This document shows positions 2,063-18,700 of a stretch of 64,000 nucleotides of DNA, one piece after another. Both the position numbers and the translations under genes were made by a program. The notes under the pieces are model-generated. The model was given only the letters and a program-made list of their open reading frames with translations, did no database searches and was not told where the DNA came from. The DNA is from a virus: IMG/VR virus record IMGVR_UViG_3300030616_000016, positions 134,561 to 198,560 of that record. One strand, written 5' to 3'. Numbering within the stretch: position 1 is the first letter of the stretch; every line of letters starts with the position of its first letter.

Positions 2063-2067
2063 TGTTT

Positions 2068-3168: not shown

Positions 3169-3169
3169 C

Positions 3170-3346: not shown

Positions 3347-3940
3347 TTATCCCTCCTGTGGGATGAAGTTTGCCACCATAGAATTCAGGAGGCTCTTCTT
3401 CCTCTCGATTTCACCCTTCTCTGTCTTATAGGCTTCTTCGAGTTCCTTCTCCTCTTCAGCAATCTCTTTAATTGCTTGAGAGTGGAGGGTTTGTGCGGTA
3501 TTTGCGAAGTCGGCGGGGCCATCAAAACGGTTGACCAGGGATTTGAACCGGTCATAGCTGATACTGTATCTCTGCTCAAATGTCTCTTTGCTGGATTTGA
3601 CAGCTTTCTCCAGCGCGCTAACTTCGTCCTGAACTTCACTCAGGGGTATGTCACAAAGAGCGAGCTTCTTGCGCTTCTCTTTGTTGCTTTTGATTGTGTT
3701 GCTGATTTCCTCAGCGTCTCGATGCGCGGCGCCGACATTCTTAACATTTACCAATGAGAGTACAGCGCTCTGCTTTGCTGTCTCTTTGGTTGCGGCCTGG
3801 CCGTTCTCGATTCCTGCTTTTGCGCCTGAGTACATGGAAGAGGGTATTGTTGCGGCTACGCTAGCCGTCTCACCCAGAAAGCTTCCAAGTCTCGCCGAAA
3901 TTCCACTGATTGTACTGGTCCGTTTCTTTAACAGATTCAT
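3347..3940 (-). CDS. coiled-coil protein of unknown function
   Basis: A 197-aa protein. Residues ~15-45 are mildly hydrophobic and glycine/alanine-rich (FLGETASVAATIPSSMYSG). The rest is strongly helical and charged, with coiled-coil character at ~75-125 and ~155-185 (for example EEEKELEEAYKTEKGEIERKK). The start at 3940 lies inside the end of the upstream membrane-protein gene (71-nt overlap). It is followed without a gap by the GTG-started membrane protein. No family was recognised. The company of two membrane proteins suggests a membrane-associated complex, as inference. Confidence 0.6.
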   Translation of the reverse strand: MNLLKKRTSTISGISARLGSFLGETASVAATIPSSMYSGAKAGIENGQAATKETAKQSAVLSLVNVKNVGAAHRDAEEISNTIKSNKEKRKKLALCDIPLSEVQDEVSALEKAVKSSKETFEQRYSISYDRFKSLVNRFDGPADFANTAQTLHSQAIKEIAEEEKELEEAYKTEKGEIERKKSLLNSMVANFIPQEG

Positions 3941-4211
3941 TTTTGTTCCTCCGAAAATGTGGTTTTGATATAATTAAACTTACACAAGGTCCTGCTATTA
4001 AACCAGCTATACCGCCTGTGACTCCGCCGCACAGACCACCGACCATAGCAAGACCGATACTTAATCCCCAGTCGACAACACATCGACTTATGGCTCTACA
4101 TTTGGCTTTAAAGCCTCGCGCCTGACCTATGGCTACCACACGGTAACCCAATATAATTAAGCCAATTGCGCCAATTATTGCCAGCATTAATTGTATCATT
4201 TCATTCGCCAT
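3870..4211 (-). CDS. putative two-span membrane protein
   Basis: A 113-aa protein with two hydrophobic segments. Residues ~5-25 (IQLMLAIIGAIGLIILGYRVV) are one; residues ~48-82 are another, rich in glycine (VGGLCGGVTGGIAGLIAGPCVSLII). They are followed by a basic then polar tail. AAAGGA lies immediately before the first ATG, so the fifth-residue ATG (4199) is an alternative start. The C-terminal ~23 codons overlap the next gene in another frame. Function is unknown; glycine-zipper-like spans occur in phage holins and ejection proteins, but this is not enough for assignment. Confidence 0.5.
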   Translation of the reverse strand: MANEMIQLMLAIIGAIGLIILGYRVVAIGQARGFKAKCRAISRCVVDWGLSIGLAMVGGLCGGVTGGIAGLIAGPCVSLIISKPHFRRNKNESVKETDQYNQWNFGETWKLSG

Positions 4212-4288
4212 TCCTTTCGCAGAAGAGTAAAAGAGACTTGTGGACAGGATTTGAGGACGAGGTTGGGACCGGTCTTATAGAGACCGAT

Positions 4289-4405
4289 TTATTGCCAGGT
4301 CCTTGCCTGCAACTTCCCCTGTGGCATTTCGTAGAGGGAAGTACTGTCAGCATTAAGTCCGACATGCTGTACGTTGCCACGACGCATTGAGCCACCACAA
4401 GTCAT
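4289..4405 (-). CDS. possible small basic protein, start uncertain
   Basis: A 38-codon frame from ATG 4405 to TAA 4289 reads like a protein (starts MTCGGSMRRGN, ends KLQARTWQ), but its own start lacks a ribosome-binding site. A strong AAAGGAG stands 34 nt upstream before ATG 4439, which opens a 6-codon frame ending in TAG at 4419. Reading +1 at CGT-TAG would join the two frames without interruption. Choices are a leader peptide, a frameshifted fusion, a one-base deletion, or chance. Confidence 0.3.
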   Translation of the reverse strand: MTCGGSMRRGNVQHVGLNADSTSLYEMPQGKLQARTWQ

Positions 4406-4605
4406 TAATAATGAACGACTAACGGTTATCGGGCGTCATTTCTTTCTCCTTTCATCAAAGATGTTATTGCTTTCTAAAGTAAAAATCAATCCACAATACC
4501 AATATAACTAGACCCTATGATGCCCTCGTATGCTTGCGAGAAGGGGTCTATTTGGCAAAGTTATTTAAAAAGAGTGTTGGTACAATTTATGACTTATTTT
4601 TGTTA

Positions 4606-4675
4606 TTGACAGAAAAGAGGACTAATAGTATAATACTATATCATAGTTTCACATATGAACTTCATATACTATTAG
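4606..4675 (+). promoter_or_regulatory. consensus sigma70 promoter with overlapping inverted repeat
   Basis: TTGACA (4606-4611) and TATAAT (4629-4634) are separated by exactly 17 bp. The -10 overlaps the left arm of a 10-bp inverted repeat: CTAATAGTAT at 4622-4631 and ATACTATTAG at 4666-4675. The promoter drives the HNH/HTH pair. The inverted repeat is well placed to be an operator (possibly for the HTH protein two genes downstream) or a leader hairpin. A perfect host-type promoter suggests immediate transcription by host polymerase. Confidence 0.8.
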
Positions 4676-4700
4676 CCCTTTTTACATAAGGAGTGGTATG

Positions 4701-5090
4701 ATGGCATGGCAATGTACTGTTTATTCGCGTAGGGGCGACGAGAATCCCTTGCCTGAAAACTGGCATGAAATTAAACTTAATGTTGTTTTCAGAGATAGAT
4801 TCACTTGTCAAATGTGTGGCAAGAAGTTCAAGTTTGAAGAACTTGATGCGCATCATTTGAAACCCCGTTCTGAAGGAGGTACTAATAACATCAAGAATCT
4901 AATAACATTGTGTGAAGATTGTCATGATGTTGTTGAGGTCAATGGAATTCGCTACCGGGATATTATCAGGAATAAGCATAGACTGCAGCGAGACAGGCAA
5001 GAAAAACTTTATGAACTTAAGCATGGGAGCAAGAAATGCAAGAGAATCAAGAAGAAACCAATAGCGAACAAAGAGAACTGGCAGACATAG
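4701..5090 (+). CDS. HNH endonuclease
   Basis: A 129-aa HNH nuclease that should make a metal-dependent nick or break in DNA. C36-x2-C39 and C71-x2-C74 form the structural zinc site, H51-H52 the first His of the beta-beta-alpha-metal fold, N67 the Asn and H75 the last His. The C-terminal third is highly basic (KKCKRIKKK) and probably binds DNA. ATG 4701 has better spacing from AAGGAG than the adjacent ATG 4698. It sits alone with a helix-turn-helix gene in a rightward island among leftward genes and has its own promoter, as expected for a free-standing homing-type endonuclease, though no interrupted neighbour is evident. Confidence 0.9.
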   Translation: MAWQCTVYSRRGDENPLPENWHEIKLNVVFRDRFTCQMCGKKFKFEELDAHHLKPRSEGGTNNIKNLITLCEDCHDVVEVNGIRYRDIIRNKHRLQRDRQEKLYELKHGSKKCKRIKKKPIANKENWQT

Positions 5091-5293
5091 GTATACGGCG
5101 GATACAACCCTCCGTCGTAGAGCCGCTGCATATTTTACTCAACAAAGGTGTTACTAAATGGGTTATATCCAAGCGCGTTGGTGTTACGTGGCGTACCGTA
5201 AGATACTGGGAGCAAGGGTTTTCTGAACCTAAAGAGTTCAATATGAAAGCCTTGTGGGATCTTGTAGATGAGGTTAATGAAGCAGGTGGCTGA
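5036..5293 (+). CDS. helix-turn-helix DNA-binding protein
   Basis: An 85-aa protein with a helix-turn-helix at ~34-60 (LLNKGVTKWVISKRVGV followed by TWRTVRYWEQG), typical of small phage regulators or of DNA-binding domains attached to homing endonucleases. The ATG lies within the HNH gene (55-nt overlap, other frame) with GGGAG upstream, so it is probably co-translated with HNH. It could repress its own promoter through the inverted repeat at 4622-4675 or act as a specificity partner of the nuclease. Both are inferences. Confidence 0.65.
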   Translation: MQENQEETNSEQRELADIGIRRIQPSVVEPLHILLNKGVTKWVISKRVGVTWRTVRYWEQGFSEPKEFNMKALWDLVDEVNEAGG

Positions 5294-5929
5294 CACATAC
5301 CATCCAGCACTCTCAATTATGTCCTTGAGTGTATCAGAGTCGTAGAATACCCTATTTGCGTTTGCTCCGTTTGAAGCGGTTCCTGGTTCTGCTGTGCCTC
5401 TTCTTCATACCCTTTCCACTTGTAAAATGAGAGGGAAGAGGTTAGCCGCCATCCGCCTCCTACACCAATCCCCTGACATACCCTCTCAAGTTAATAAAGG
5501 GGAGAGGGCTTTCTTGCTCCACGTCAGCCTCCAATGTTAGAGTTGGCCCAGCTGTACGTACCCTCTCTGAGAGCTTGCTACCATATTGGTGACTGTTGTG
5601 GTCGTCACCTTACCGCCCCCGATTCTATTACGATCCAACGCCCAAGGGTAGCAATTGGAAAGGTGAGAGACTTTCTTCCCACCACGCAATTAGCGTATCT
5701 CTCTGGGTGTAGTCTCTGATGAGATAAATCTACGACTGTAGGTGGGGCTAATAGTCCTACCTTGAGACGTTTAACGAATCATTCCAGACGTTGTGAAATT
5801 CCCATCAGGTGAGAGGCTTTGTTCGCCACGTACAGCCACCGGCGTTTATTCCGGATGTACACCTCAGTTAGTACTGAGTACGCTGTCCGTATCCTCTCGT
5901 AGGCTCTGAGTTACCTACTCAGCCGTTTT
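5294..5929 (+). ncRNA. candidate large structured non-coding RNA (~600 nt)
   Basis: No convincing gene is present. Clear local inverted repeats include CCCTCTC/GAGAGGG (5481-5508), GGTGAC/GTCACC (5588-5609), the GTAC-CCGG / CCGG-GTAC nested stem around 5829-5859 and CTCAGT/ACTGAG (5863-5878). A GAGAG...CTTT..TTC..CCACG element recurs near 5503, 5665 and 5809. A terminator closes the region at 5902-5929, and transcription from 4606 would run into it. Large ornate phage RNAs such as GOLLD and ROOL have this size and setting, but membership cannot be claimed. No tRNA cloverleaf was found. Confidence 0.45.
5902..5929 (+). terminator. terminator of the HNH/HTH/ncRNA unit
   Basis: GGCT-(CT)-GAGT pairs with ACTC-AGCC around a TACCT loop and is followed by GTTTT on the + strand. 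It overlaps the last codons of the leftward coiled-coil gene, so the hairpin also follows that gene's stop. The T-run is on the rightward side only. Confidence 0.6.
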
Positions 5930-6136
5930 CGAATCCAAATCGCAAGCAGCGATCTCTTCATCGGGCTGAGTTTCGCTAAGCTGTTTCTTGAGTTCAGCGA
6001 TGGTTTTGTGGCTGGTGTCCAGATTGCTCTGGAGCTCGGAGATGGTCTGGTTTCGCTCTGTCAACGCCTTCTCCTGGTCCTTGTTTGTTTTGACCAGACG
6101 CTGACACTTCTGATGCAACATTTCACGCTTTGTCAT
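5915..6136 (-). CDS. small coiled-coil protein
   Basis: A 73-aa protein with start ATG 6136 and AGGAGA six bases upstream. Residues ~5-55 form an almost continuous heptad-rich coiled coil (for example ALTERNQTISELQSNLDTSH then KTIAELKKQL), followed by an acidic tail. No enzyme motif is present. It may be an oligomerisation or partner-binding protein. Its final codons coincide with the converging terminator of the rightward unit. Confidence 0.65.
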   Translation of the reverse strand: MTKREMLHQKCQRLVKTNKDQEKALTERNQTISELQSNLDTSHKTIAELKKQLSETQPDEEIAACDLDSKTAE

Positions 6137-6233
6137 GCTTGTCTCCTGTTAAAATAAAGTTGGTGTGTGAACCCGTATACGAACGTAAGTACACACGGGA
6201 ATATTACATATAACCTACTTATTATAAGTAATG

Positions 6234-6557
6234 TCACGATACTGATTCAAGCTTCTTCTGAAGCTCATCAATTGTTGCGTAGATGCCCTTGGCATCATCA
6301 TCAAAGCGACTCATCAGTCGCCTGAAGATTCTGTAGTTGATGTTGAAGTCGTCCTTGAACACCCTCACCATCTTGTTTATTGCGAAACTGAATTGGAGCC
6401 GCATTGCCTTGTCACCAGACTTCTCAGCTTCCTCCATGCGGTTTAGGGCGTTGTCTATCTGACTCATGGCCAGAGCCGCTACTTCCAGGTGGGGTACTAT
6501 TGACAGACGAGCAGCGGCGTGCTCCTTCTTTCCTTTAGCTACATCGAACAGATTCAT
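6234..6557 (-). CDS. helical protein of unknown function
   Basis: A 107-aa protein starting MNLFDVAKG at ATG 6557, with AAGGAG upstream. An in-frame upstream ATG at 6614 lacks a ribosome-binding site. The sequence is alpha-helical and mixed-charge (ALNRMEEAEKSGDKAMRLQF, then IYATIDELQKKLE). No domain was recognised. It lies between the coiled-coil gene and a hairpin terminator that follows the 7245-6790 gene. Confidence 0.6.
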   Translation of the reverse strand: MNLFDVAKGKKEHAAARLSIVPHLEVAALAMSQIDNALNRMEEAEKSGDKAMRLQFSFAINKMVRVFKDDFNINYRIFRRLMSRFDDDAKGIYATIDELQKKLESVS

Positions 6558-6642
6558 GTTACTCTCCTTGTCAAATATTGCTGGTGTTCTCTCCAATTCC
6601 CGAGGGTATTGCATTTTATCTTTGTCGATTATTGCTATAAAA

Positions 6643-6683
6643 TACGTAGATGGTAACGATCACAAGTCATTACCACCTACGTA
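6643..6683 (-). terminator. long-stem terminator for leftward transcripts
   Basis: TACGTAGATGGTAA (6643-6656) and TTACCACCTACGTA (6670-6683) form a 14-bp stem with one mismatch, which becomes a G-U pair in the leftward RNA. It is followed on that strand by TTTTATAG. It lies past the end of the gene that stops at 6790. Confidence 0.6.
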
Positions 6684-6697
6684 CCAGGAGAGAGTAT

Positions 6698-6784
6698 ATG
6701 GGCACCCACTATGTGGATGGCTATATATTATCTCCAAATAAAGGCGTAGGGCGCCCCATTAGGAGCAACCCTACACCGAGGTAA
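6698..6784 (+). CDS. possible 28-aa peptide
   Basis: ATG 6698 is preceded by CCAGGAGAGAGTAT, a strong ribosome-binding site. The frame runs 28 codons to TAA (MGTHYVDGYILSPNKGVGRP, then IRSNPTPR). It is on the opposite strand to its neighbours and lacks an obvious promoter, so it may be chance. It converges with the leftward gene that ends at 6790. Confidence 0.35.
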   Translation: MGTHYVDGYILSPNKGVGRPIRSNPTPR

Positions 6785-6789
6785 GTGCT

Positions 6790-7245
6790 TTAGATTTCGT
6801 TAGATACGAAGTCACTGGCACCTGAAGGAACTTCACTGGTCTGACGACGGGAGCGCCGTGAGCTCACCTGAGTAGGTGTGCGGGGAGCGCGTCCCTTGTT
6901 TTCAGGGTCACCAGCAGAAGCGACGACATTGGGAGCTTCCCCGTTTGCTACCTCTTCCAGGTTATCCACCGCGAAGACCTCAACGCGTTTGATGTCGTAC
7001 TGACGTTTACCGTCAACACCGACTTCATAATCGCTGTACGGAGCGACGTTATTCTTAACGAAGCCCCACAGCTCGTTGAGTTTCTTCTTGCGGGTGGCGT
7101 TACCACTGATGATTGCCAGACCCTTGATTTCATCGACTTTGTTCACATCGACGTAGATTGCGTGCCTTTCTCCTACAAGCTTAACAGGCACGGCGTCTTC
7201 CAGAACTTCATTAAATCCCTGCGTCATATCGATAATCGGGCGCAT
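6790..7245 (-). CDS. hypothetical protein with basic, disordered C-terminal tail
   Basis: A 151-aa protein whose start is taken at ATG 7245 (MRPIIDMTQG), because AAAGGA sits 8 bases upstream; an in-frame ATG at 7266 is upstream of that site. Residues ~1-100 look globular, with alternating beta strands (VPVKLVGERHAIYVDVNKVDEIKGLAIIS). The last ~45 residues are polar, basic and proline/serine-rich (PRTPTQVSSRRSRRQ), probably disordered. A nucleic-acid role is possible, but no family was recognised. It is followed by the hairpin at 6643-6683. Confidence 0.6.
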   Translation of the reverse strand: MRPIIDMTQGFNEVLEDAVPVKLVGERHAIYVDVNKVDEIKGLAIISGNATRKKKLNELWGFVKNNVAPYSDYEVGVDGKRQYDIKRVEVFAVDNLEEVANGEAPNVVASAGDPENKGRAPRTPTQVSSRRSRRQTSEVPSGASDFVSNEI

Positions 7246-7428
7246 TTTAGCGTCCTTTCTGCCCAATGAAGGGCGTTAAGTTAAGTTTGGGCACAGAATG
7301 GACTGTACCCGTTAAGTGTCTGTCTGTTATACTCTTAGCACGTGTCGCTTACGTTTGGTTTTGCGCACACGGTACTGTAGGGTATAGCGTAGTAATGAAA
7401 CCACGCAACAAACAAAACCCAAAACACA

Positions 7429-7614
7429 CTATCCCTGTACTATCCGTAGCACAGCTTGGTCGTGTTCAGGGTCGTCTTTTCTGATTCCAAGGGCTGTCTT
7501 TACGTCTTCGAGCTTATCGCCCTTGTACTTGTCATCATTACGACGGTTGGCGTTTGCTATGTTACACTCAATCGCCTCTTTGTACCTCTGGTCCCGCGAC
7601 TTTCTTGTTCTCAT
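7429..7614 (-). CDS. small basic/polar hypothetical protein
   Basis: A 61-aa hydrophilic protein (MRTRKSRDQRYKEAIECN... ending RIVQG). It starts at ATG 7614 with AAGGAG 6-8 bases upstream, within a TTAAGGAGAAATGTT context shared by neighbouring leftward genes. No motif was identified. The ~180 bp between it and the next gene downstream holds no gene that could be supported. Confidence 0.6.
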   Translation of the reverse strand: MRTRKSRDQRYKEAIECNIANANRRNDDKYKGDKLEDVKTALGIRKDDPEHDQAVLRIVQG

Positions 7615-7635
7615 AACATTTCTCCTTAAAATGGT

Positions 7636-7902
7636 TCATGCCATATGAGGCTGATTATCCTCAATAAATTTCACCACCTTATCAAAGTCCAATGGTATTT
7701 CAGGTCTTCTGAGAGGAATATAATATATTTCCTTTCTCTGGTTATCAGAAATAACACCATGGGCAATTTCCATGTGACATTCTTTGCACTGGTCTACAAT
7801 TAAGTCATTGCAAAACCTGCACACGAACCCGAATATGCGGTCTTTGCAGTGCCTGCACCTGATGTTTAGTGTTGGTAGCCTGTCTGGTAATGTTGACCTC
7901 AT
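7636..7902 (-). CDS. zinc-finger protein with three CxxC pairs
   Basis: An 88-aa protein starting at ATG 7902 (MRSTLPDRLP); GAAGGAG precedes this ATG, while the longer in-frame ATG at 7992 lacks one. CRHC, CRFC and CKEC lie at about residues 16-19, 27-30 and 38-41 with a following His, enough for at least one and probably two zinc sites in a rubredoxin-like or ribbon fold. The C-terminal half (IPLRRPEIPLDFDKVVKFIE) is a separate helix-strand region. It belongs to a run of zinc-binding small genes in this cluster. No activity is assigned. Confidence 0.65.
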   Translation of the reverse strand: MRSTLPDRLPTLNIRCRHCKDRIFGFVCRFCNDLIVDQCKECHMEIAHGVISDNQRKEIYYIPLRRPEIPLDFDKVVKFIEDNQPHMA

Positions 7903-7973
7903 AACATTCTCCTTCAAATGGGTTAAGTACAAAGACCTTCCCTGATCTATAAGGGATTGAGACAGGTAAGGTT

Positions 7974-7995
7974 GGAGCGAGCCCGCGCTCACTCC
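7974..7995 (-). promoter_or_regulatory. GC-rich hairpin at a gene end
   Basis: GGAGTGAGC and GCTCGCTCC (leftward strand) pair over 9 bp with one G-T and a 4-nt loop, at the stop codon of the gene ending at 7989. No T-run follows, so it is more likely a processing or stability element than a terminator. Confidence 0.4.
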
Positions 7996-8171
7996 AAACC
8001 ATCAATACAATCATAGTGAACCCTGTAGTCCACTATGCACTGCTCAGACTCTGTGAGCGAGCTCATTCCAAAGAAATCCGCCCGCTCAAACAAATCCCCA
8101 TACTCCTCACGGATGACGCCTTTGTCATCATCTGAGAGTGGCTTACTACAAACCGCGCATATGTTATCCAT
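7989..8171 (-). CDS. small zinc-binding hypothetical protein
   Basis: A 60-aa protein starting MDNICAVCSKPL: a CxxC near the N-terminus and later Cys and His residues (C45, H52, C55 in CIVDYRVHYDC) could make one zinc site. ATG 8171 is preceded by AAAGGAGATAACTA and overlaps the previous stop by one base (TAATG), so it is translationally coupled. Unknown function. Confidence 0.6.
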   Translation of the reverse strand: MDNICAVCSKPLSDDDKGVIREEYGDLFERADFFGMSSLTESEQCIVDYRVHYDCIDGLE

Positions 8172-8440
8172 TAGTTATCTCCTTTACAAAGGTTATCTTT
8201 GAAGAATTTGTTGAGGACTTCACACGCTTTGTCGAACTTATGTGTGGCTTTATCCAGTTCAGCCTGTGCGTAGTCGAGAGCCAGGCTGTACTCGTGCCAC
8301 ACCCAGTAACCCTCAACGTAATCCCGCGCCACTTCCTCATCAACACCACACATTGCCACTACTACCTTGGTGGCGGTTTCTGTATCTTCAACCAGCGCCC
8401 GGATTATTTCATCAATCTTCGGTTGGTCATGTTCATTCAT
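8171..8440 (-). CDS. acidic helical hypothetical protein
   Basis: An 89-aa protein, mostly helical and acidic (IDEIIRALVEDTETATKVVV at ~8-30, LDKATHKFDKACEVLNKFF at ~62-82), with an aromatic patch GYWVWHEY in the middle. Start ATG 8440 has TTTTAAGGAGTAATCTA upstream. It is first of a tightly coupled leftward group. A possible -10 (TATAAT near 8560-8565 on the leftward strand) lies upstream in the gene-free stretch 8441-8734. No family was recognised. Confidence 0.6.
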   Translation of the reverse strand: MNEHDQPKIDEIIRALVEDTETATKVVVAMCGVDEEVARDYVEGYWVWHEYSLALDYAQAELDKATHKFDKACEVLNKFFKDNLCKGDN

Positions 8441-8596
8441 TAGATTACTCCTTAAAATATGGTTGTTGTGAACTGGCGCGCCATTTCTTTATTCACGCCA
8501 TAGGGACTGTCAGTACAATCCCGTAAAAATTACCGTCATATACTGTTAGCGTTAAGATTCATTATAAAAAGATATTAGAACGGAGTATACAACAAT

Positions 8597-8673
8597 GCTA
8601 CGCGTAGTTTGCGTAGCGACCTTTGTCGGTGCGTAGTTTGCACCGCGAGCCGGCAGATGTAGTTACTGCCGGC
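8597..8673. repeat. three tandem hairpins with a conserved loop
   Basis: Three consecutive hairpins have different stems but the same loop core. GCTACGC/GCGTAGC (8597-8617) and CGGTGC/GCACCG (8627-8645) both have loop GTAGTTT. GCCGGCAG/CTGCCGGC (8649-8673) has loop ATGTAGTTA. On the leftward strand the loops read AAACTAC (TAACTACAT in the third). Stems that change while keeping pairing, and loops that stay the same, suggest selection for an RNA structure bound by a protein. They occupy the 3' side of the zinc-ribbon gene ending at 8735 and the leader side of the gene at 8440. Confidence 0.6.
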
Positions 8674-8734
8674 GCGGAGTCGGCTTGCTCATTGGTTTAC
8701 TCTGCTTGGCATTGGAACCGGAGCTTGGGGTAGG

Positions 8735-8893
8735 TTACGGAGTACCTACCTTGAAATGGGTGGTCATCCCCCGGCACCTTGGGCACCGGGAGACTTCCTT
8801 TATGTATATCTTACCGCAATTACTACACAGGGATCCTATCTTCCCCGCGTTCTCCTTCATATAATCATTAAGCTCATCTCTGAAGGACTTCAT
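8735..8893 (-). CDS. 52-aa zinc-ribbon protein
   Basis: This short gene starts at ATG 8893, in an AATGA overlap with the preceding stop and directly after GAAGGAGGTGCTGA. It encodes 52 aa: a helical N-terminus (MKSFRDELNDYMKENAGKIG), a zinc ribbon (CSNC...CPRC at ~23-41) and a short basic tail. A hairpin (GGTAGGT/ACCTACC) overlaps its stop codon. It resembles stand-alone ribbon proteins of unknown role, and its tight coupling to the upstream gene suggests they act together. Confidence 0.7.
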   Translation of the reverse strand: MKSFRDELNDYMKENAGKIGSLCSNCGKIYIKEVSRCPRCRGMTTHFKVGTP

Positions 8894-9456
8894 TCAGCAC
8901 CTCCTTCGAAAAGCTGGTGGATCTTCTCGCTTTTTACTCTCTTGCCTGTGGTACAAGAGAATACAAAGGGCGCGCCATTTATTTCTACCTTAACATAGTG
9001 ATGCTTGTTAAAGTATTTGGCCACCCTCTTGGTCACTACCTTGTGCTTGCAGTATGGCAACGATACTCTGTTGCCTTCCTTATCCAGAAGTTTCATGGTA
9101 TTACCCGCCATCTTATAAAGCAGGTAATACTCTCCATTTACCAGCTGGATAACAGGTATCTGTTTATCACCAAGTCTCTCCCGGAACTTGGTGATGCCTT
9201 CCCTCTTCTTCCCTCTTGCAAACAACTCTCTAATGCATCTGCTCGGGTCGTCACCCATGTCTGTTAACTGCTTGCTGACACGCATCTTATCGTCAGCAGT
9301 AGGTGCGGCTTGTATGGATTTGATAAATCCACTGCACACCCCGTGGGGCATACTCATTGCTGAGTATACCCCGTATTCGTTGCTGTGACGGACAAATGCC
9401 TTCTGTCTTGACAGGCGACGTATTTCAATGCGAACATTATCTATTGTAAGAATCAT
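8890..9456 (-). CDS. hypothetical protein of 188 aa
   Basis: Start ATG 9456 (MILTIDNVRI) is chosen because AAGGAGAG lies just upstream; the in-frame ATG at 9474 precedes that site. The protein is mixed alpha/beta. It has a Cys-containing central part (SMPHGVCSG... RCIRELFARG), a strand-rich middle (IPVIQLVNGEYYLLYKMAG) and a C-terminal segment resembling a strand-turn-strand with VVTKRVAKYF. No domain was identified. It lies between the polymerase-like gene upstream and the ribbon gene downstream, probably in one operon. Confidence 0.6.
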   Translation of the reverse strand: MILTIDNVRIEIRRLSRQKAFVRHSNEYGVYSAMSMPHGVCSGFIKSIQAAPTADDKMRVSKQLTDMGDDPSRCIRELFARGKKREGITKFRERLGDKQIPVIQLVNGEYYLLYKMAGNTMKLLDKEGNRVSLPYCKHKVVTKRVAKYFNKHHYVKVEINGAPFVFSCTTGKRVKSEKIHQLFEGGAE

Positions 9457-9480
9457 TTCTTTCTCTCCTTGCATAAATGG

Positions 9481-11772
9481 TTAGAGGACGACCTTCTGGC
9501 CGACCATATTGAGAACTGCTTCTTCTTTGCTGACATACCAGCCAGCCTGCTTGCCGTCCTTGTGCAGCTCCACACTGTACCAGTCGGACTTACGATAAAT
9601 CCGTTCTGGCTTAGCATGCACTTCCAGTTCTACTCCTTGCAGGTCACTTACTTGACCCTTGAATCCCCTCACGTCAATAAATCCATCAGGCACATAGGAC
9701 TCATCAACATCAACAGCAAAGCGTGACTGGATATCACCAATATACCTACCAAGAATGGTGATAAAGAACGTATTGCGCGTTCTAACTCCTTCATCGTTCC
9801 ACCATTTCACTTTACCCTTGTCAGGCTTCTCTGACCAGGCGATGCGCATCATAGACCCGATGACATCGAGAGGGTTGTCCAGCGCTTCAACATAATCCAA
9901 GATCTCATCAGTAAGTGCTCTGAACTCATTTCTGATTTCTTTATCCTTGTCATCCGAAGTTAGCTCAGGGTCTTTCTTGATCTCGATTACATTTCTGATG
10001 GTATTGGACCTGGATTCCCATATAAACGCCCAGAGATCTTCTCCTTCTGGAGTGATATCAAACGCGTTTACATCGAACGGTGGCTTGGCCTCCATGTTTG
10101 TATCAGTGTATTTGGCCAGCTCAAGCTCATCCTGAATCTTGTCGAAGCCATTCAGGAACTTTGTCAGCTTGCATTTCTCAGCCATTTCGTAGGCCAGAAG
10201 CTTTTTAGGGAAAACTTCCGGCTTGCCATACTTATCAATCAATTTGTAGCCATATGCGACCAGATCTTTCTCGTCTTTCGATACTGGTCTGTTATCAATG
10301 ACCTTGTGTTTGATATAACCAAGATCCTTGATCAACTTTGGATCGTCAAACCCATTGGTCAAAGACAGGCACTGTTGCACAAGATCAACACCGCCAATTG
10401 TGAGACCAGAATGAATGTCGATAAGCTGATGTGCAAGCTCGCGCAAGGCTTCATTCTTTGGTTTCGACAAGTCGATCTCCAGCTTCATTGGATCTTCATC
10501 GTCCAATGTTCTTTCTGGAGTCTGAGAGATATCCTGAGTCCATGAGAATGGCTTATGTTTATTTCCGTTCTCGTCTATCACAGTTAGGCCCATGACTTCA
10601 GAACTAGAGCCTATTGGTACTCTGAATGCCGCAGCTCCACATTCGACATACTCAGGATCGATGCCCCATATTTTCTTGAGCATCTCTGCGTTACGCGCTT
10701 TCATCTCCTCTGTGATTACGTGGAGTGTAAGTGTGTCTCCATCACAGTCCGATGAAGTCCATCGCTCTATATTATCTATGGTCTTCTTGCTTGCAAGACC
10801 AAGGGTATACTTGTGCGTTCCAACAACCAACGCCATAAAGTCTTTCTTGCATCCTGTGAACTTTATGTTGCGCTCGTCCACCACAATGGTATTTGGCGGC
10901 AGGGTCTCATCACATATCATCATACCCTTGATGCCTTTGCCTTCATGGGCCATAGCAACACCAATCGCCATGATTTCATCATCGGAAGACTCAAGCTTGA
11001 GCTCATTTTCTTCTAGAGTCTCAGCGTCTTCTCTCCAGGCAATTGGATATGATCCGAATGCTGTTGCATACTGATTCTTCTTGTACGGCGCATCCATAAG
11101 CCTGTTCATCTCCTTATTGAACTCATAGAAGGCCACTGCGTCGTCGACTGATATCTCGAATGGGAAATGAGCCAGATTCTTGGCTACCCATTCTGGCGTG
11201 AGCCGCATATTGTCTATCTTATGCGCCCACTCGCATGTTGAAAGAACGTATGCTTTATTGAACTCGTTCTTTGTCTCTGCGGAAAGGTCGCTGCCGTAAA
11301 TAGCCGTTGGATACTGCATCGGCAGCATAGACTGCTTCTGCTTATTTAAGGTTGTCCTTGCCGCTTCCTTTTTTACCTTCTTCCATACGTCTTTGCTTCC
11401 ATGAATCAACCCATCTACGGTTCTAGCAATGATGACGTTGATCGTCTTGCTATCCCAGTACGCTAACCTCCTGAGACTTTCATTAAGCATCCAAAGTATC
11501 CTTCTAAGATGCTTAACTCTTATGCGACCATCAACCATCGCCTGAGATGACTCAAACCACTTAGGTTGAGTCTTAAGGCCGAGATTATTATCGGGAACAA
11601 GGTCCCATTTGACCATATTCCAGACGATATCGTTAATGACTTTTTCTCTGAGGCCTTTTTCTCTGCCTCTACCCACTGTCTTAGTCGACAATGACACAGG
11701 GAAATCTGCAGGCATGTCTGTCCTGCCAAGATCTCCTGCATAGACTGTTTTGCTGCTTAACTTACACTTCAT
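9481..11772 (-). CDS. putative single-chain double-psi beta-barrel RNA polymerase
   Basis: A 763-aa protein. Around residues 340-365 it has S-D-C-D-G-D-T-L-T-L-H-V, then EEMKARNAEML. This matches in pattern the RNA polymerase beta-prime catalytic loop NADFDGDxMAVHV and the E/A-rich helix after it; D342, D344 and D346 would bind magnesium. About 60 residues earlier, HEGKGIKGMM (K279, K282) followed by a DETLPPNTIV segment resembles the beta-subunit barrel with its two active-site lysines (RHGNKGV...). Beta-like then beta-prime-like barrels in one chain is the order in YonO/QDE-1-type enzymes. ATG 11772 has TTAAGGAGAA upstream. It lies in the non-structural leftward operon, so it would be made after infection, perhaps for later transcription. 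An RNA-dependent polymerase or inactive relative cannot be excluded. Confidence 0.6.
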   Translation of the reverse strand: MKCKLSSKTVYAGDLGRTDMPADFPVSLSTKTVGRGREKGLREKVINDIVWNMVKWDLVPDNNLGLKTQPKWFESSQAMVDGRIRVKHLRRILWMLNESLRRLAYWDSKTINVIIARTVDGLIHGSKDVWKKVKKEAARTTLNKQKQSMLPMQYPTAIYGSDLSAETKNEFNKAYVLSTCEWAHKIDNMRLTPEWVAKNLAHFPFEISVDDAVAFYEFNKEMNRLMDAPYKKNQYATAFGSYPIAWREDAETLEENELKLESSDDEIMAIGVAMAHEGKGIKGMMICDETLPPNTIVVDERNIKFTGCKKDFMALVVGTHKYTLGLASKKTIDNIERWTSSDCDGDTLTLHVITEEMKARNAEMLKKIWGIDPEYVECGAAAFRVPIGSSSEVMGLTVIDENGNKHKPFSWTQDISQTPERTLDDEDPMKLEIDLSKPKNEALRELAHQLIDIHSGLTIGGVDLVQQCLSLTNGFDDPKLIKDLGYIKHKVIDNRPVSKDEKDLVAYGYKLIDKYGKPEVFPKKLLAYEMAEKCKLTKFLNGFDKIQDELELAKYTDTNMEAKPPFDVNAFDITPEGEDLWAFIWESRSNTIRNVIEIKKDPELTSDDKDKEIRNEFRALTDEILDYVEALDNPLDVIGSMMRIAWSEKPDKGKVKWWNDEGVRTRNTFFITILGRYIGDIQSRFAVDVDESYVPDGFIDVRGFKGQVSDLQGVELEVHAKPERIYRKSDWYSVELHKDGKQAGWYVSKEEAVLNMVGQKVVL

Positions 11773-11808
11773 ACTAATTCTCCTTAAAAGGGTGGTCTTG
11801 TTATAAGA

Positions 11809-11846
11809 GACAGGCTATATAGCGACCACTAACCATATAGCCTGTC
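11809..11846 (-). promoter_or_regulatory. 12-bp inverted repeat upstream of the polymerase-like gene
   Basis: GACAGGCTATAT (11809-11820) and ATATAGCCTGTC (11835-11846) form a perfect 12-bp inverted repeat around 14 nt. It lies between the stop of the upstream coiled-coil gene and the start of the polymerase-like gene. It could be an operator or an RNA hairpin that sets expression of the latter. Confidence 0.55.
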
Positions 11847-11859
11847 ATTGAATTAAGAT

Positions 11860-12162
11860 CTAGCGTCCGAGGCGCTTCCTCAGACTATTGATCTCGTTCT
11901 TGGCCTTACCGATGTCCTTGCCGAGATCCTTAATGATCTCAACGTACTGGTCGATGAACTCCTTGGTCTCTTCGCTATAAACCTCGAAGTTTCTGACAAA
12001 CTCCTGATGGTGTTTGCGCTCCCTCTGCATCTGGCGCAAGTCCTTCTCCTTTTTCTGGAGCTCTTCCTCCAACTTGAGCACGGTCTTAGCCATGCTCTGA
12101 TTTTTGTTATCCATGCTGCTTATGATCGCTTCTTTGAACTGAGCCATGTCTCCCAATTTCAT
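11860..12162 (-). CDS. coiled-coil protein
   Basis: A 100-aa protein from ATG 12162 (MKLGDMAQFKE), with AAGGAG 8 bases upstream; an in-frame ATG at 12192 lacks this. Residues ~25-100 are nearly all helical with long charged heptads (LEEELQKKEKDLRQMQRERK and IIKDLGKDIGKAKNEINSLR), ending in a basic KRLGR. It is directly upstream of the polymerase-like gene in the same direction, separated by the 11809-11846 inverted repeat. A partner or assembly role is possible, but nothing identifies it. Confidence 0.6.
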   Translation of the reverse strand: MKLGDMAQFKEAIISSMDNKNQSMAKTVLKLEEELQKKEKDLRQMQRERKHHQEFVRNFEVYSEETKEFIDQYVEIIKDLGKDIGKAKNEINSLRKRLGR

Positions 12163-12237
12163 ATCTAACTCTCCTTCTGCCCTATTGGGCAATAGCGTAT
12201 ATAGAAGGCCCTATATAGGCCCTTGCCTATATAAGGG

Positions 12238-12264
12238 GTAGTACATATACGCCCTATGTACTAC
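12238..12264. promoter_or_regulatory. 10-bp inverted repeat in a TATATAGG-rich spacer
   Basis: GTAGTACATA (12238-12247) and TATGTACTAC (12255-12264) pair around TACGCCC. The surrounding spacer 12180-12290 repeats CTATATA/TATATAGG words (GGCCCTATATAGGCCC, GCCTATATAAGG). It lies between the 51-aa gene and the coiled-coil gene. A terminator is unlikely because no T-run follows. Confidence 0.45.
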
Positions 12265-12286
12265 CTGTTTACACTGCATATAAGGT

Positions 12287-12442
12287 CTACCTATTAGACC
12301 TTGTTGTATAAGTACCCACATTACCCTTAATAAGGGCTTCTACACCATACCCAATAGTGTCGGACTTACGCGCATAGTGTTTATTGAGCACGCGCATATT
12401 GTGCTCATCAACAATCCTCTTAATCTGTTCTGCTCTACTCAT
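12287..12442 (-). CDS. 51-aa basic hypothetical protein
   Basis: ATG 12442 is preceded by TTAAGGAGAGTATT and opens a 51-codon frame (MSRAEQIKRIVDEHNMRVLN ... TTRSNR) ending in TAG at 12287. The N-terminal half is helical and the C-terminal half glycine/serine-containing and basic. A GGTCTA/TAGACC hairpin surrounds its stop. The strong start context and position inside the operon support it despite its size. Function unknown. Confidence 0.6.
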   Translation of the reverse strand: MSRAEQIKRIVDEHNMRVLNKHYARKSDTIGYGVEALIKGNVGTYTTRSNR

Positions 12443-12452
12443 AATACTCTCC

Positions 12453-12572
12453 TTAATTACTATGGATTAACGGATATACGTACTCCAGTAGTACGTATAG
12501 GAATATGCACGCACATATTCCAAACAGTAGTCCCTTACATACTTCCTTGAGCCACTCCTTTGGCTTGTTCAC
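12453..12572 (-). CDS. 39-aa single-span membrane protein, GTG start
   Basis: GTG at 12572 follows AAGGAGGTGTATA and is preferred over upstream starts that lack a ribosome-binding site. The protein is MNKPKEWLKEVC..., with a basic N-terminus and one hydrophobic span of ~20 residues (GLLFGICACIFLYVLLEYVY), then PLIHSN. The likely topology is N-in. It follows a two-span membrane gene by 11 nt. Together they could be membrane lesion or lysis factors, but the sequences alone do not show this. Confidence 0.55.
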   Translation of the reverse strand: MNKPKEWLKEVCKGLLFGICACIFLYVLLEYVYPLIHSN

Positions 12573-12583
12573 TATACACCTCC

Positions 12584-12781
12584 TTAGATAAATGTTCCTG
12601 CTGTGTTGCACACCCACTGCAGGGCAACAATTGCCCCAAACAGCATAGCACCAACCCATGCTATCCTTTCTACGTATGCATGAATATCATCTATCACACT
12701 GCTGCCCCACTCACAATTCATTACGAACGTGCACAATACACCTATGCACAGACACACCACAAACGCTATTATATACTCCAT
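12584..12781 (-). CDS. 65-aa two-span membrane protein
   Basis: ATG 12781 (MEYIIAFVV) follows TATGGAGGTGTGAT; a longer in-frame ATG at 12802 precedes the ribosome-binding site. Two hydrophobic segments lie at ~2-22 (EYIIAFVVCLCIGVLCTFV) and ~40-62 (IAWVGAMLFGAIVALQWVC), joined by a short acidic loop. The size and two-span layout resemble class II holins, but many small phage membrane proteins look alike and no lysozyme gene is adjacent. Confidence 0.55.
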   Translation of the reverse strand: MEYIIAFVVCLCIGVLCTFVMNCEWGSSVIDDIHAYVERIAWVGAMLFGAIVALQWVCNTAGTFI

Positions 12782-12956
12782 ATCACACCTCCATATAAGC
12801 ACTATTAATATATACTAATGAGCAACACACCCATTAGTACTGATGATACAGTGCTATATATCACCATTCACTATATAGACCGCCTTATATAAGGAAGCCT
12901 ATATAGTAAAGGTATACTATTTATATATGCGCCATATACCAGGGCGCTCATACATA

Positions 12957-13286
12957 TCACATATACACTGTTGTTTCTGGTTTATTGTGCTTGGTAAATT
13001 CATTCATCCCACCAAGCACCCTCCTTATCTGTCTGTTTGTACCATTGCTAATCACCAGGTATACATATGACTCATGGTAGAAATCACCGTCGTAATCGTC
13101 AATAATTCTTACCTTGTACTCAACTACACGCCCGTTGCACCATATACATCTCTGATACACATGTTCCAAGGAAGGTATATCTCTTACTACATCACCAACC
13201 ACCAACCCCGTGGAGCTGTCAAAAAACTTACCTTCTACTGCTACATTGTTGCTATCTTTCACTGCATTAAGATTTGTGATCAACAT
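12957..13286 (-). CDS. hypothetical beta-rich protein
   Basis: A 109-aa protein with start ATG 13286 and AAAGGAGATCATT upstream. It is strand-rich and mixed-charge: VVGDVVRDIPSLEHVYQRCI, an isolated CxxC (CIWC), then VVEYKVRIIDDYDGDFYHES and SYVYLVISNG. It may be a small SH3- or OB-like barrel, as a guess from the strand pattern. It is the first leftward gene beside the divergent control region. The 155 bp between it and the next gene downstream (12802-12956) is AT-rich with repeated TATATAG words and no gene. Confidence 0.6.
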   Translation of the reverse strand: MLITNLNAVKDSNNVAVEGKFFDSSTGLVVGDVVRDIPSLEHVYQRCIWCNGRVVEYKVRIIDDYDGDFYHESYVYLVISNGTNRQIRRVLGGMNEFTKHNKPETTVYM

Positions 13287-13399
13287 AATGATCTCCTTTG
13301 CCCATCGGGCTAAAAGTTTTTATTTTCTTTCTCTATAAGCACCCCGGTACCGTGCATCGACCAATGCACATCATAAGTACCGAGAAATATCAACCATCA

Positions 13400-13482
13400 T
13401 CCACCCTTGTGTCTTACAAATCTTCCACCCTTAAGACCTTATATTTTCTTCCACTCTTGTGTTTCATGAATTATCCACCCTT
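13400..13482. repeat. four iteron-like TCCACYCTT repeats
   Basis: TCCACCCTT at 13400, 13424 and 13474 and TCCACTCTT at 13450 are spaced 24, 26 and 24 bp. Copies 1 and 3 are followed by TTGTGT-like words (GTGTCTTAC, GTGTTTCAT), so the array looks like a duplicated ~50-bp unit with two sites each. Spacing of about 2.4 helical turns and position in a divergent spacer suggest operators or replication iterons. Confidence 0.7.
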
Positions 13483-13769
13483 GAAAATTATATATATAAT
13501 ATGCACATAGTGCTGCTGCAGCGTGTCAACAAGAGCTTGACGGCAAGCCCGCCCCTCTTAAAAATAACACTCCAAGACGCCGCCGCCCCATTACATAAAA
13601 ATGCAACCTAGTAGCTGAGCTACTGTTCATCATAGATAAACTTCAAGAAAGACCCCCCGGTACCGCATATATACACTCCCGCATAACAACCTATTCATGC
13701 CCCCAAAAATATATATAATATACACTTCACACTCCCTGAGTGTTATTCTTGAATATTTTATTATTACAA

Positions 13770-13797
13770 TTGAATTCATAACCAATTATGCTATAAT
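13770..13797 (+). promoter_or_regulatory. sigma70-like promoter before the methyltransferase
   Basis: TTGAAT (13770-13775) and TATAAT (13792-13797) are 16 bp apart. They lie ~35 bp before the TTG start at 13832, in an AT-rich context. It is the only clear promoter seen at the head of the rightward structural block. Confidence 0.65.
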
Positions 13798-13831
13798 TAC
13801 TACTGATTGATTTAACAGGAGGAATACAATA

Positions 13832-14389
13832 TTGGCTTGTTTATATATAGAAGCAGGAGCAAACAGAGGTAGGTCAGCAAAGCGGTTTTATAAGCAACAC
13901 AAAGACATTAACTTCGAGTATCACCTTTTTGAGGCTAATCCTAATATCATTGCAGACCTTAACAGTTCAGTGGTATGTATTCAAGGCGAGCGCACTATTT
14001 ATAACAAAGCCGTATGGACTGAAAATGATATTGAAATGGAAATCAAGATAGATAAGACGACCAAGGGGTCAACTATCTGTGAGAAGAGTGTTAGAGTGAA
14101 TGAGACGGCGGTTACGTCCACAATAGACTTTGATGAATGGTTCAGGGCCTGTTGTAAAGAAGATGATTATATTGTCCTTGTTATTGATATAGAAGGCGCG
14201 GAATATGAAGTTCTTCCAAAGATGATTGATAACGGGTGCTTTGACATGGTAGACGAGCTTACAATCGAATTTCATGGTCATAAAATGAAGAATAAAAAAT
14301 TCACATCCGATATGAATAAATTGTTTAGGGATTATTTTAATACAATGAAGTTCAATAAGTGCGAATTGTATTTTATAGACAAAATTTGA
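13832..14389 (+). CDS. FkbM-family SAM-dependent methyltransferase, TTG start
   Basis: A 185-aa protein. Residues 4-14 (LYIEAGANRGR) match the glycine-rich SAM-binding motif (vDvGANiG), FEANP at ~33-37 is the acidic ribose-binding motif, and VIDIEGAEYEVLPKM at ~117-131 is the FkbM signature. These enzymes O-methylate sugars or related small acceptors; the substrate here is unknown. The TTG start is chosen because AGGAGGAATACAATA stands directly upstream and residue 4 begins the fold. It is the first gene after the promoter at 13770. It could modify a host glycan or a phage glycan, and is shorter than many family members but has all core motifs. Confidence 0.8.
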   Translation: MACLYIEAGANRGRSAKRFYKQHKDINFEYHLFEANPNIIADLNSSVVCIQGERTIYNKAVWTENDIEMEIKIDKTTKGSTICEKSVRVNETAVTSTIDFDEWFRACCKEDDYIVLVIDIEGAEYEVLPKMIDNGCFDMVDELTIEFHGHKMKNKKFTSDMNKLFRDYFNTMKFNKCELYFIDKI

Positions 14390-14401
14390 AGGAGCCTTAC
14401 C

Positions 14402-14764
14402 ATGACCCGCCCTACTAATGATGATAAGTTTGTTACCCAAAAAGAATGCGGCTCGTATAATCGGGCCATTAACAGAAATCTTGTTGTTATTATTCTTTTT
14501 GTTGTTGGCGCGATAATTACTTTGTACAAGGCCAATGCCAGTACAAATGCCATTCTTAAAGATGGCTTTAATGAGAAGATGTCCGCTATAACTGATCACA
14601 TTAATGACACTGAATTAACAAATGTTACTGAGATAACCACCCTAAAGGGTGAAATAAGCCGCCTTATTGTTGTCATTGATAACACCAACAGCAATCTTAA
14701 GAGATTGGAACAGGAAATTAAGAAGCTAAAAGAAGAATTACAGAGGTCGAGATCAGGCAAATGA
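14402..14764 (+). CDS. membrane-anchored coiled-coil protein
   Basis: A 120-aa protein with AAGGAG before ATG 14402. An N-terminal polar stretch is followed by one membrane span at ~26-46 (LVVIILFVVGAIITLYKA). A long helix then ends in a clear coiled coil (SNLKRLEQEIKKLKEELQRS at ~96-115). The layout N-in, single span, external coiled coil resembles i-spanins and other phage membrane anchors, but no o-spanin follows. The stop overlaps the next start (ATGA). Confidence 0.6.
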   Translation: MTRPTNDDKFVTQKECGSYNRAINRNLVVIILFVVGAIITLYKANASTNAILKDGFNEKMSAITDHINDTELTNVTEITTLKGEISRLIVVIDNTNSNLKRLEQEIKKLKEELQRSRSGK

Positions 14765-14958
14765 AAGATAAAACAGCAGACATATTCAGGCTTTTATGGT
14801 CAAACAACGATGATATAGCCAGGCTTCTTAGAGCCCACCGCCCCGATCTTCTTAACAGAGCACGTAAGAAGCCCACAAGCAGAGACTGTGAAGACTACAT
14901 CACTTTATGCAAGGAAATAGCAGAGGCTGATATTCCTGGATTGGATGAAATATTATGA
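14761..14958 (+). CDS. small helical hypothetical protein
   Basis: A 65-aa protein, helical and charged, with a basic middle (RARKKPTSRDCEDYITLC) and acidic end. ATGA overlaps on both sides couple it to its neighbours. No family was recognised. It lies three genes before the first putative internal virion protein; a packaging-related role is possible but unsupported. Confidence 0.6.
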   Translation: MKDKTADIFRLLWSNNDDIARLLRAHRPDLLNRARKKPTSRDCEDYITLCKEIAEADIPGLDEIL

Positions 14959-15794
14959 AGAAATTTAATATGCAGGGCGCGCTTTATAAATCAGACAAAA
15001 ATCCTGAAGAGATTAAAAAGGAGATATGTAAGAACAAACCGGCAGAAGAAGAATCCAAGCCTATAGAAATGATCGAAGTAGACAACAGCAGCGAGCTTCC
15101 CAAGGAACTCGCGCCGCTTCAATCACTCGTAGATAAAATAAGCCCTGATCGAACAGTAACTTTACCAGCTGAAACCTGGAAAACACTTGCTAAGTGGGCT
15201 GTGAAAGCACGGAAAGGAGCCTCCAGAGAAGCGCCCATGCTTTGCACAAGCGAGCAATGCCCATACGCTAAACAATGCCCTCTCATTAAATCCGGCGTTA
15301 ATATTGAACCATTTACAGAATGTCCTCTTGAAAGCTACCTCATGGAAGAATGGGATGAGGATATGGCCGCCAGTATTGCAGATAAACCTGGCGATAAACT
15401 TTACGCTCCAGATCTGCGCACTATTTCTCATTCAACACTTCTTGAAATCCTTATGAGAAGAACAACCATGGAACTAGCTAATGATCCAGAGGTTGTAAAA
15501 GAAGTGGTTATTGGTATAGACGAAGAAGGTAAGCCAGTCAAAGCAGAGAAGCTTAATGATAAAATAACCGCCGTCCAAAATATGATCAAAACAGAAGAGA
15601 AACTTCACGACTCTCTTCTCGCCACAAGAAAAGCAAGAGCTGCTGCAGGTGATAAACTTTCAGGCGATTCTGAAGATTATATAGAGGGCGCCGCTTCTTT
15701 TGCTGAAACAGAGGTAGCTGATGAACAACCAGACAAGAAACGTGATGAACATTCTGAAGCGGATGGGGATACTGAAGGATCCGCCGGGTCTTAA
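14955..15794 (+). CDS. hypothetical protein with Cys cluster
   Basis: A 279-aa protein. The N-terminal ~60 residues are charged and probably disordered. Residues ~95-125 contain four cysteines (C-x5-C-x5-C-x13-C, in CTSEQCPYAKQC then CPL and ECPLE) that could bind zinc or an iron-sulphur cluster. Residues ~150-230 are helical, and the C-terminus is acidic and disordered. The last 74 nt overlap the next gene in another frame. A terminase small subunit would be expected somewhere upstream of the large terminase, and this is one candidate by position, without direct sequence evidence. Confidence 0.6.
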   Translation: MKKFNMQGALYKSDKNPEEIKKEICKNKPAEEESKPIEMIEVDNSSELPKELAPLQSLVDKISPDRTVTLPAETWKTLAKWAVKARKGASREAPMLCTSEQCPYAKQCPLIKSGVNIEPFTECPLESYLMEEWDEDMAASIADKPGDKLYAPDLRTISHSTLLEILMRRTTMELANDPEVVKEVVIGIDEEGKPVKAEKLNDKITAVQNMIKTEEKLHDSLLATRKARAAAGDKLSGDSEDYIEGAASFAETEVADEQPDKKRDEHSEADGDTEGSAGS

Positions 15795-18700
15795 ACCAAG
15801 CAAGCTTGAGAATTACGGTATAGGCCTTGTTTCAGAGGGAATTCACAGCACAATAAATCCGCACGATCTTAAAACCCCTTTCTCCACATTCCATGTTGGT
15901 TCAGGGTACAAAGGGATAGAGTTTGATAATGTTATCAAAGCTGTCCGTATGGGTACTTATCTTGACCTTGAAACCAGAGGCCTGGATCCAAGAAAGGATC
16001 CTCCTTGGCTGGGCGCCATAGTAAGCCCAGGCGTTTCAGAGCTCAGCGAAGAGGCATATCTTGAAACCATAGGTACTCCCCTATTCAGACAAAAGCTTGA
16101 TGCCGAAGGGCGTGTAGATTATGATTATCTCTCTGAAAAGCTATTCAACATAAAACCATCCCGTCCAATATTACAACCAGGCTTATCTGAAGAGGATGCC
16201 ATTAAGCAGGTTATAGACAGCATGGGTCAAAGAATCAAGCCCATGGTGTATGAAGGGCGTCCTGTAGACCTCCTGAAAAGTGAAACGTTGCGGCAATTTT
16301 TGAAAACTGCCCCTGAGGCAATTAGGAACGGGACGCCTGCGCAACAAATAGCCGCGTATTTTGATCCACAACTAAATCCTTCCAATAGAGCCCTAAATGA
16401 GTTTATGCATGGTGGGGAAGGTATTTTTACTCAGGCTTCAAAAGATGTGCTTGCTATGACTGGCCAGAAAATGAGCGCTGGTGACATTGACAGAATAAGA
16501 AAGAACCTTATGAATGAGCTTCACACCGGCAAGGGATTGAATTGGGATGACTGGTTGAAGCAGTCTTTTGATGCAGCGGATCAATCAGGCAAGACAATAA
16601 TCGTTCACAACCTTCAGTTTGAATCTAGAATGGCAGCCGGCCGAACCAGCCAAACTTTCTATAACGAACTGAAAGAACGATACTTGCATTCATACAGCCA
16701 GGCCAAATCAAAATCAGACGATATATTCACGCAAAGAATATACACTACTTCCACCGCTCTTCACAATGCCAAGTTCGAAGCGATGAGAAATTGGTCTAAT
16801 GATGCCTGGGGTAATGTTTTTGATGAGTGGGCAAGGCATGCTGATCTAAAGACAAATAAGGTGAAGGTTCTTGACAGTATGGATCTTGGTCGTTCCGTGT
16901 TTGGTATGGCGCAGGAACAGCTTGGAAGAAAAGGTTTATATAAGTGGCGTAATACACAGAGCATGGCTGGTTTAAGCTTGTCTCACTATGCAGACGCTCT
17001 TACCAGATACCACGAATCAATAGGCGATCCTCTTCCTGATTTCCTTCGGAAGGAGCTTCACAGATCACGCGCTGATGCTCTTCTTACAGAATCATATGTA
17101 GAAGACATGCTTCAGATAGGCAGGCTGCTTAGAGAAGGTAGAGGTGGCGAGCTTAATCTTGAAAGAAATAATAGATATAGAATGATATTGGAGAGATTGG
17201 GTGAGATTAATGCCGACCCTATGACTCGACTTAATGCTGCTAGAAAGCAAGCTCTCCAGGAATTTGGTACTATTATTGGTGGTGATGAGGTAGAGATTAG
17301 AGATTGGGATCCAGATAGACCTAGAGGTCCATATCATGAAGTTACTACCATGGAGTGGGTTCCTGACGACACCAGGGAAGGTGGCTCTTTCAAACGTATG
17401 AATAGGAAGGTAAGTGATTATAAGAGAAGAAAAACAAATAGGATGGAAGAGGTCGTAGATTACCACATCAAAGGTTTTAACAAGAATCTTCGTAAAGATC
17501 TTACAGATAAGCAGATACAAAGATTTAGAGAATCTCTACTTAGTGCCGGTAGGCAGATGAAGCAGGCTTACCACACTAGGAAGCCTGGAGCTGTACAGAA
17601 GGTAGCAGAACAGCTTGAGCAGGTAGATGCCTTTAATATGGATAAGGCATTCTCTCCGGATCAAGCGAAGAGGTTTATTGGAGATATAGAGCGCAAGACA
17701 TTTGCTAAGGCTACATCTCATCAGTTGGGTATGACTGGTAAGATAGGGTGGCTTACTGCAGGTATGATGGGTGGCGCTGTGCTTATGAAGTCCATGATGG
17801 GCTCTGAGGCAGAGCACTATATGAACCAGATGTATTCGAAGTACACGAAGTATGAGCAAGATCAGGGTGTATTTGAACAGGTAGATGTTCTTGCTTCGAT
17901 GGGCGCAGGAGCTTTTGGTGGAGCTGTATTAGCTTCTTCTTTTGGTCCAGGAATGGAAATGACCCTGTCCAAAAGTGCTCATGAGATGATGAAGCTTAAG
18001 AATGTTGGAAGGAATTTGCCTTATATGGCAGCTGCCGGCTTAGCCTTAACATCAACACTTTATTCTCTCAAGAGTAATGTTTCTGATGTAGTTGATGCCG
18101 AGCCTACAGAAGGACATCCCTTCCAGATGGGTAGTGCGTTTCTTGGGGCGGCTGCTATGACAGGAATGGCCTATGGTCAAAGATATGGCTTTGCTCAAGA
18201 CGCATTTGCAAAAAGACTGGAAGGCGAACCAAGAGCGATAGACAAACTTGCTAATCTGACTGGCCTTAGACATGGATCCGATATGCTTAGCGGTGTATCT
18301 GATCTTGTACTTCACGGCGGACGCACAGCAAGCCCAAAGATGGACTGGGCCAGGTCCAGTATTATAGACCCCGTCACAACCAAAATCAAATCCGTTACTT
18401 CCAGCAAAGGCTTCCAATCAGTAATGGATACAATGGGTAGATATAAGATACCGGGAGTTATTGCAGCTGGTGTTGGTATGATGTTTGGAGCCGACTATCT
18501 TTTTGGTCAGGAAGACAACGTTATTCCAGCTCAGCATATTGACAATATGGAAATAGAGGGTATGGGCGAATATGGATATTCAGGTCCTATGCGCAAGGCC
18601 AATACTCCATTTGGATCCAGAAACAATCCAGCAAAAATTATCAAAGATGCCTGGGGTCAATTCAATGTCAGCGCGGCCAGGGCCAAACCACAAAATTACT

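Follow-up and report, generated by a model that had tools for sequence, protein, structure and literature searches.

The 763-aa open reading frame (ORF) located at positions 9481–11772 (minus strand) of the window, the 64,000-nucleotide stretch of DNA analyzed here and corresponding to positions 134561–198560 of a 231,647-base virus record, is a real gene. Its predicted product is an orphan in every collection searched and carries an acidic loop resembling the catalytic loop of RNA polymerase beta-prime subunits. Whether this protein constitutes a very diverged beta-prime-type catalytic chain or merely displays a coincidental acidic loop is a coin-flip, and we rate the two readings as equal. 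At best, the ORF would encode a candidate second polymerase, extremely diverged. A reading in which one chain contains both barrels finds no support. The firmer result is a pair of beta-like and beta-prime-like genes carried by the same genome; this pair, and not the 763-aa ORF, is the natural candidate for phage transcription.

An orphan gene in a leftward operon

The coordinates, strand and length reported for the ORF in an earlier note on this DNA are all borne out, with an ATG start. The ORF looks like a gene because an AAGGAG ribosome-binding site (11780–11785, minus strand) precedes this ATG and because codon use is phage-like solely in its own frame (+0.17 bits per codon, against negative values in the five others). 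A 194-aa ORF belonging to no family lies immediately downstream in a common leftward operon (8890–9474, minus strand). Between the upstream gene and the 763-aa ORF, a 12-bp perfect inverted repeat (GACAGGCTATAT / ATATAGCCTGTC, 11809–11846, not assigned to a strand) occurs as a single full copy in the genome and is probably a terminator or an operator. The G+C content is about 0.34–0.38 in the leftward gene block preceding the window and 0.41–0.47 from window position ~1400 on (about 1441–21440), a region including the 763-aa ORF and the first structural genes.

The protein belongs to no family in Pfam, PHROGs, NCBIfam or PADLOC, and no relative was retrieved from the PDB, phages, plasmids, viral contigs or genome contigs; the contig scans detect close relatives only and distant ones may have escaped. 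Moorella phage MTATph1, Bacillus phage KLEB27-3 and 70 further virus records carrying the tail-tube protein of the phage yielded no match either. No profile similarity was observed with the RNA_pol_Rpb1_2, rpoC and RdRP families, and a search for the RdRP family over the phage genome was equally negative. A search for the pattern DCDGDTL..H matched one contig, which carried no ORF homologous to the 763-aa ORF. Structure prediction by AlphaFold2, with no alignment of relatives to draw upon, gave models without confidence (pLDDT of 33 for the whole chain and 37 for residues 258–372).

The phage and its recognizable polymerase pair

Judging from its terminase, portal and tail-sheath proteins, the phage is large and contractile-tailed, and is distant kin of Moorella phage MTATph1 and Bacillus phage KLEB27-3. 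Its portal protein (998 aa, 26760–29756, plus strand) contains an inserted LAGLIDADG or intein-like region at about residues 354–717. Related-phage alignments cover 37–42% of the terminase large subunit (1033 aa, 21216–24317, plus strand); since they fall in two separated pieces within residues ~54–948, they suggest a large insertion in the middle of this protein, in which Pfam recognized no intein domain. Elsewhere in the record, an intein with a LAGLIDADG domain interrupts the gene of the actin-like protein Volactin (43593–45647, plus strand) and an intein or LAGLIDADG insertion is found in a radical SAM protein (8381–10546, minus strand). The record also carries Type I-E CRISPR genes (14942–19924, minus strand) encoding a CT1975-like (Cas7-type) protein, Cse1 and a Cas3 C-terminal-like helicase, as well as a gene for an IS605 OrfB/TnpB-like (Cas12f-related) protein (92460–93677, minus strand).

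The beta-like RNA polymerase subunit (556 aa, record positions 104448–106118, minus strand), which contains GDKITNRHGNKGIVN, matches Pfam RNA_pol_Rpb2_6 (E 6e-15 over the genome), PDB beta chains (E 2.5e-10) and TIGR rpoB (1e-13). The beta-prime-like subunit (508 aa, record positions 106108–107634, minus strand) carries R-N-P-L-L-H and I-I-H-P-I-I-T-D-G-M-G-A-D-S-D-G-D; it matches PDB beta-prime chains (E 1.4e-4) and a viral beta-prime profile (E 1e-9), with an hhalign value of 89% over the barrel, and two further profile searches gave E = 0.037 and 0.0006. The two genes overlap by 11 bases and encode together 1,064 aa (record positions 104448–107634). Annotated phages match the beta-like chain partially, at most 32% of it being covered, mainly the lysine barrel, and they provided no match below E 0.3 for the beta-prime-like chain. 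No close relative of the beta-like chain turned up when viral contigs were scanned, and Pfam found no beta-prime C-terminal domain in the phage genome. Such a compact pair is well suited to exploring the lower size limit of a cellular-type two-subunit enzyme. It also bears on the proposal of the earlier note that the 763-aa protein could transcribe the later phage genes: this idea has lost its appeal because a recognizable beta/beta-prime pair is encoded in the same genome, 37 kb away.

The aspartate loop

The D342-C-D344-G-D346 loop of the 763-aa protein (10735–10749, minus strand) continues as T-L-T-L-H-V, so that H351-V352 (10717–10722, minus strand) lies at the distance from the loop at which HV is found in beta-prime subunits. 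K279, K282, D342, D344 and D346 had all been quoted correctly. The bare D-x-D-G-D motif is common: four ORFs of the phage longer than 250 aa possess it, two of them in a calcium-loop-like context. In scans of viral contigs, D-x-D-G-D-T-x-x-x-H-V was encountered in at least 119 stretches, and the refined pattern D-x-D-G-D-T-h-x-h-H-V, with hydrophobic residues at +6 and +8, in at least 104 contigs besides the window. The R-x-P of beta-prime barrels is present in all 98 listed matching contigs with enough upstream sequence, the window excluded; for this reason the refined pattern, as far as the upstream regions allow one to judge, singles out RNA polymerases among viral sequences. Among the matches listed, the 763-aa protein is the single one without R-x-P and the only one with C at the x of D-x-D-G-D; it also lacks a proline after HV, a residue shared by 101 of the 105.

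When a beta-prime profile was run on all ORFs of the phage, the 763-aa ORF came second: only the true beta-prime ranked higher, and all shuffled decoys ranked lower. Its score was nevertheless weak (9.8 bits, E 0.064) and was obtained via residues 335–361 only. Comparison of the protein with viral beta-prime by hhalign aligned only residues 335–357 or 339–365. The pattern used to collect the loops was designed from the window protein itself, and the flanks were therefore scored with T, H and V masked. A very strong first flank score was discarded as circular, its training contigs having been gathered by the window-derived pattern; after masking, p was ~0.01. The masked flanks match viral beta-prime weakly, with p = 0.007 against beta-prime only, p = 0.017 against all families and p = 0.12 when beta-prime is left out.

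The R-x-P element is present in 80 of 80 training sequences. In the 763-aa protein it was not found ~35–47 residues before the loop, the sole candidate being an R-N-I at -41: R301-N302 (10867–10872, minus strand), 41 residues before D342, occupies the place of R-x-P in known families and is followed by I, not P. The best-scoring segment of this protein for an R-x-P profile was no better than shuffles (p = 0.77), and R301-N302 is not significant by profile. The upstream beta-prime segment, including the N-terminal 'RP...GR...NRL', was also at chance level in the profile test. Of the beta-prime catalytic loop claimed in the earlier note, the beta-prime-like D-x-D-G-D...HV loop in a leftward non-structural gene is supported, whereas the R-x-P expected with it is missing.

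Proposed lysine motif and barrel arrangement

In published single-chain enzymes, the lysine-bearing barrel DPBB-B is followed by a connector and then by DPBB-A, which carries the aspartates (PMC10770324). In the sequences that we read, the distance from the K-G strand to the aspartates further along the chain is about 180 residues in P23-45 gp64, 230 in gp96 and 235–340 in YonO-like proteins. The earlier note had identified HEGKGIKGMM (K279, K282) as the beta-barrel lysine motif and placed both barrels in one chain; the first assignment fails and the second is not supported. K279-G-I-K282 (10927–10938, minus strand) is separated from D342 by ~60 residues, a spacing too short to accommodate the remainder of one barrel, a connector and the initial half of the following barrel; its 'KG' has no preceding R-strand, and both spacing and context are unfit for a DPBB-B lysine. 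No other lysine-motif candidate was found upstream of the D-loop in this protein, and none of the YonO-like second-barrel and C-terminal blocks scored above shuffles. The bridge-helix (IG..SN) and trigger-loop (hD.AK) blocks expected after the aspartates were at chance level (p = 0.55 and 0.75). Likenesses noticed by eye to eukaryotic RNA-dependent polymerases, to the YonO bridge and trigger elements, to a YonO C-terminal motif and to the 'RP...GR...NRL' segment of the beta-prime N-terminus were rejected, those that could be tested being at chance.

A single-chain, two-barrel, non-virion RNA polymerase of the YonO, QDE-1 or gp66 kind, transcribing the late genes, would agree with the length of the protein, since 763 aa falls within the range of ~617–1159 aa of the enzymes examined, and with a D-loop present in a leftward non-structural gene. 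It is nevertheless improbable, given a lysine–aspartate spacing of 60 residues against ~180–340 in gp64, gp96 and YonO-like proteins, the lack of an R....KG strand elsewhere in the chain (lysine-strand profile, p = 0.54) or of R-x-P, and an hhalign comparison with the YonO-like alignment in which nothing matched at the D-loop.

A diverged polymerase chain or a coincidental loop

Two explanations deserve equal consideration. According to the first, to which we grant somewhat less than an even chance, the 763-aa protein would belong to the two-barrel RNA polymerase superfamily, as a chain that diverged very fast and kept only the beta-prime-type catalytic loop. D342, D344 and D346 would bind Mg2+ within a barrel resembling DPBB-A, at approximately residues 283–353. 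The lysine-bearing second barrel could be contributed by a partner, for example the 556-aa beta-like subunit of the phage, or could alternatively reside within the 763-aa chain in an undetectable form. The sequence shows the loop with its strand pattern and, in the same genome, the beta/beta-prime pair; the fold, metal binding, the partner and any transcription by this protein are inferred. This explanation draws on the specificity of the loop, on the second rank of the ORF in the beta-prime profile search, on the hhalign alignment to viral beta-prime, on the masked-flank p of ~0.01 and on the precedent of P23-45 gp64, initially put forward solely because of its DxDxD motif, when hardly anything else in it was similar, and later shown to be an RNA polymerase (PMC10770324). 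A second multisubunit polymerase is also frequent in jumbo phages that possess one (PMC7824862, PMC7598289). The explanation is weakened by the fact that no other feature has survived, not even R-x-P, which is constant elsewhere.

According to the second explanation, which likewise falls a little short of even probability, the protein would be a non-polymerase orphan of another fold, its D-x-D-G-D being coincidental or binding a divalent metal for another purpose, and transcription would be left to the pair. Outside a stretch of 11 residues, all RNA polymerase tests failed; the bare motif recurs in the phage ORFs mentioned above, partly in calcium-loop-like form; the many DNA stretches examined for motifs make some chance matches of such strength expected; and the genome does encode a real polymerase pair. 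Against it, the refined pattern combining the hydrophobic strand and HV is otherwise confined to RNA polymerases among the matches listed, to the extent that their upstream sequence shows, and the D-loop flanks score slightly above random.

The phage might encode two DNA-dependent RNA polymerases, namely the pair for which no close relative was found and an exceptionally reduced beta-prime-type chain of 763 aa, having lost R-x-P and with its lysine barrel separate or hidden, but we regard this combination as unlikely.

Comparison with known systems

Two-barrel polymerases of phages, either split or single-chain, are already well known (PMC7598289, PMC7824862, PMC7481178, PMC5467207). The 763-aa protein shares with tailed-phage beta-prime subunits (Weinheimer and Aylward 2020, PMC7481178) the D-x-D-G-D-T-h-x-h-H-V loop followed by an acidic helix-like stretch; it differs from beta-prime subunits by the absence of R-x-P, of GYNAD before the loop, of P after the loop and of the upstream segments. 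YonO-like RNA polymerases (PMC5467207) fall in the same size class and are likewise products of leftward non-structural phage genes, but apart from the aspartates none of their invariant positions is above chance in this protein. The 508-aa beta-prime-like chain of the phage itself is also encoded on the minus strand and carries GADSDGD, whereas its R-N-P-L-L-H, its upstream G-K-S-G...S-G strand and its clear profile matches have no counterpart in the 763-aa ORF, which is no recognizable paralog of this chain. Another parallel concerns P23-45 gp64 and gp96 (PMC10770324), two phage proteins with a DxDGD motif and scarcely any other similarity. Both possess a K-G strand ~180–230 residues before the loop and R-R/N-P ahead of it, two elements absent from the 763-aa protein, while the DFDGDTLVV of gp96 resembles its DCDGDTLTL. 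If the loop were truly catalytic, the protein would be an RNA polymerase chain so diverged that about a dozen residues are left, and would bear on the minimum of the two-barrel core that an enzyme requires; it would then represent a new, extreme variant of the phage two-barrel polymerases.
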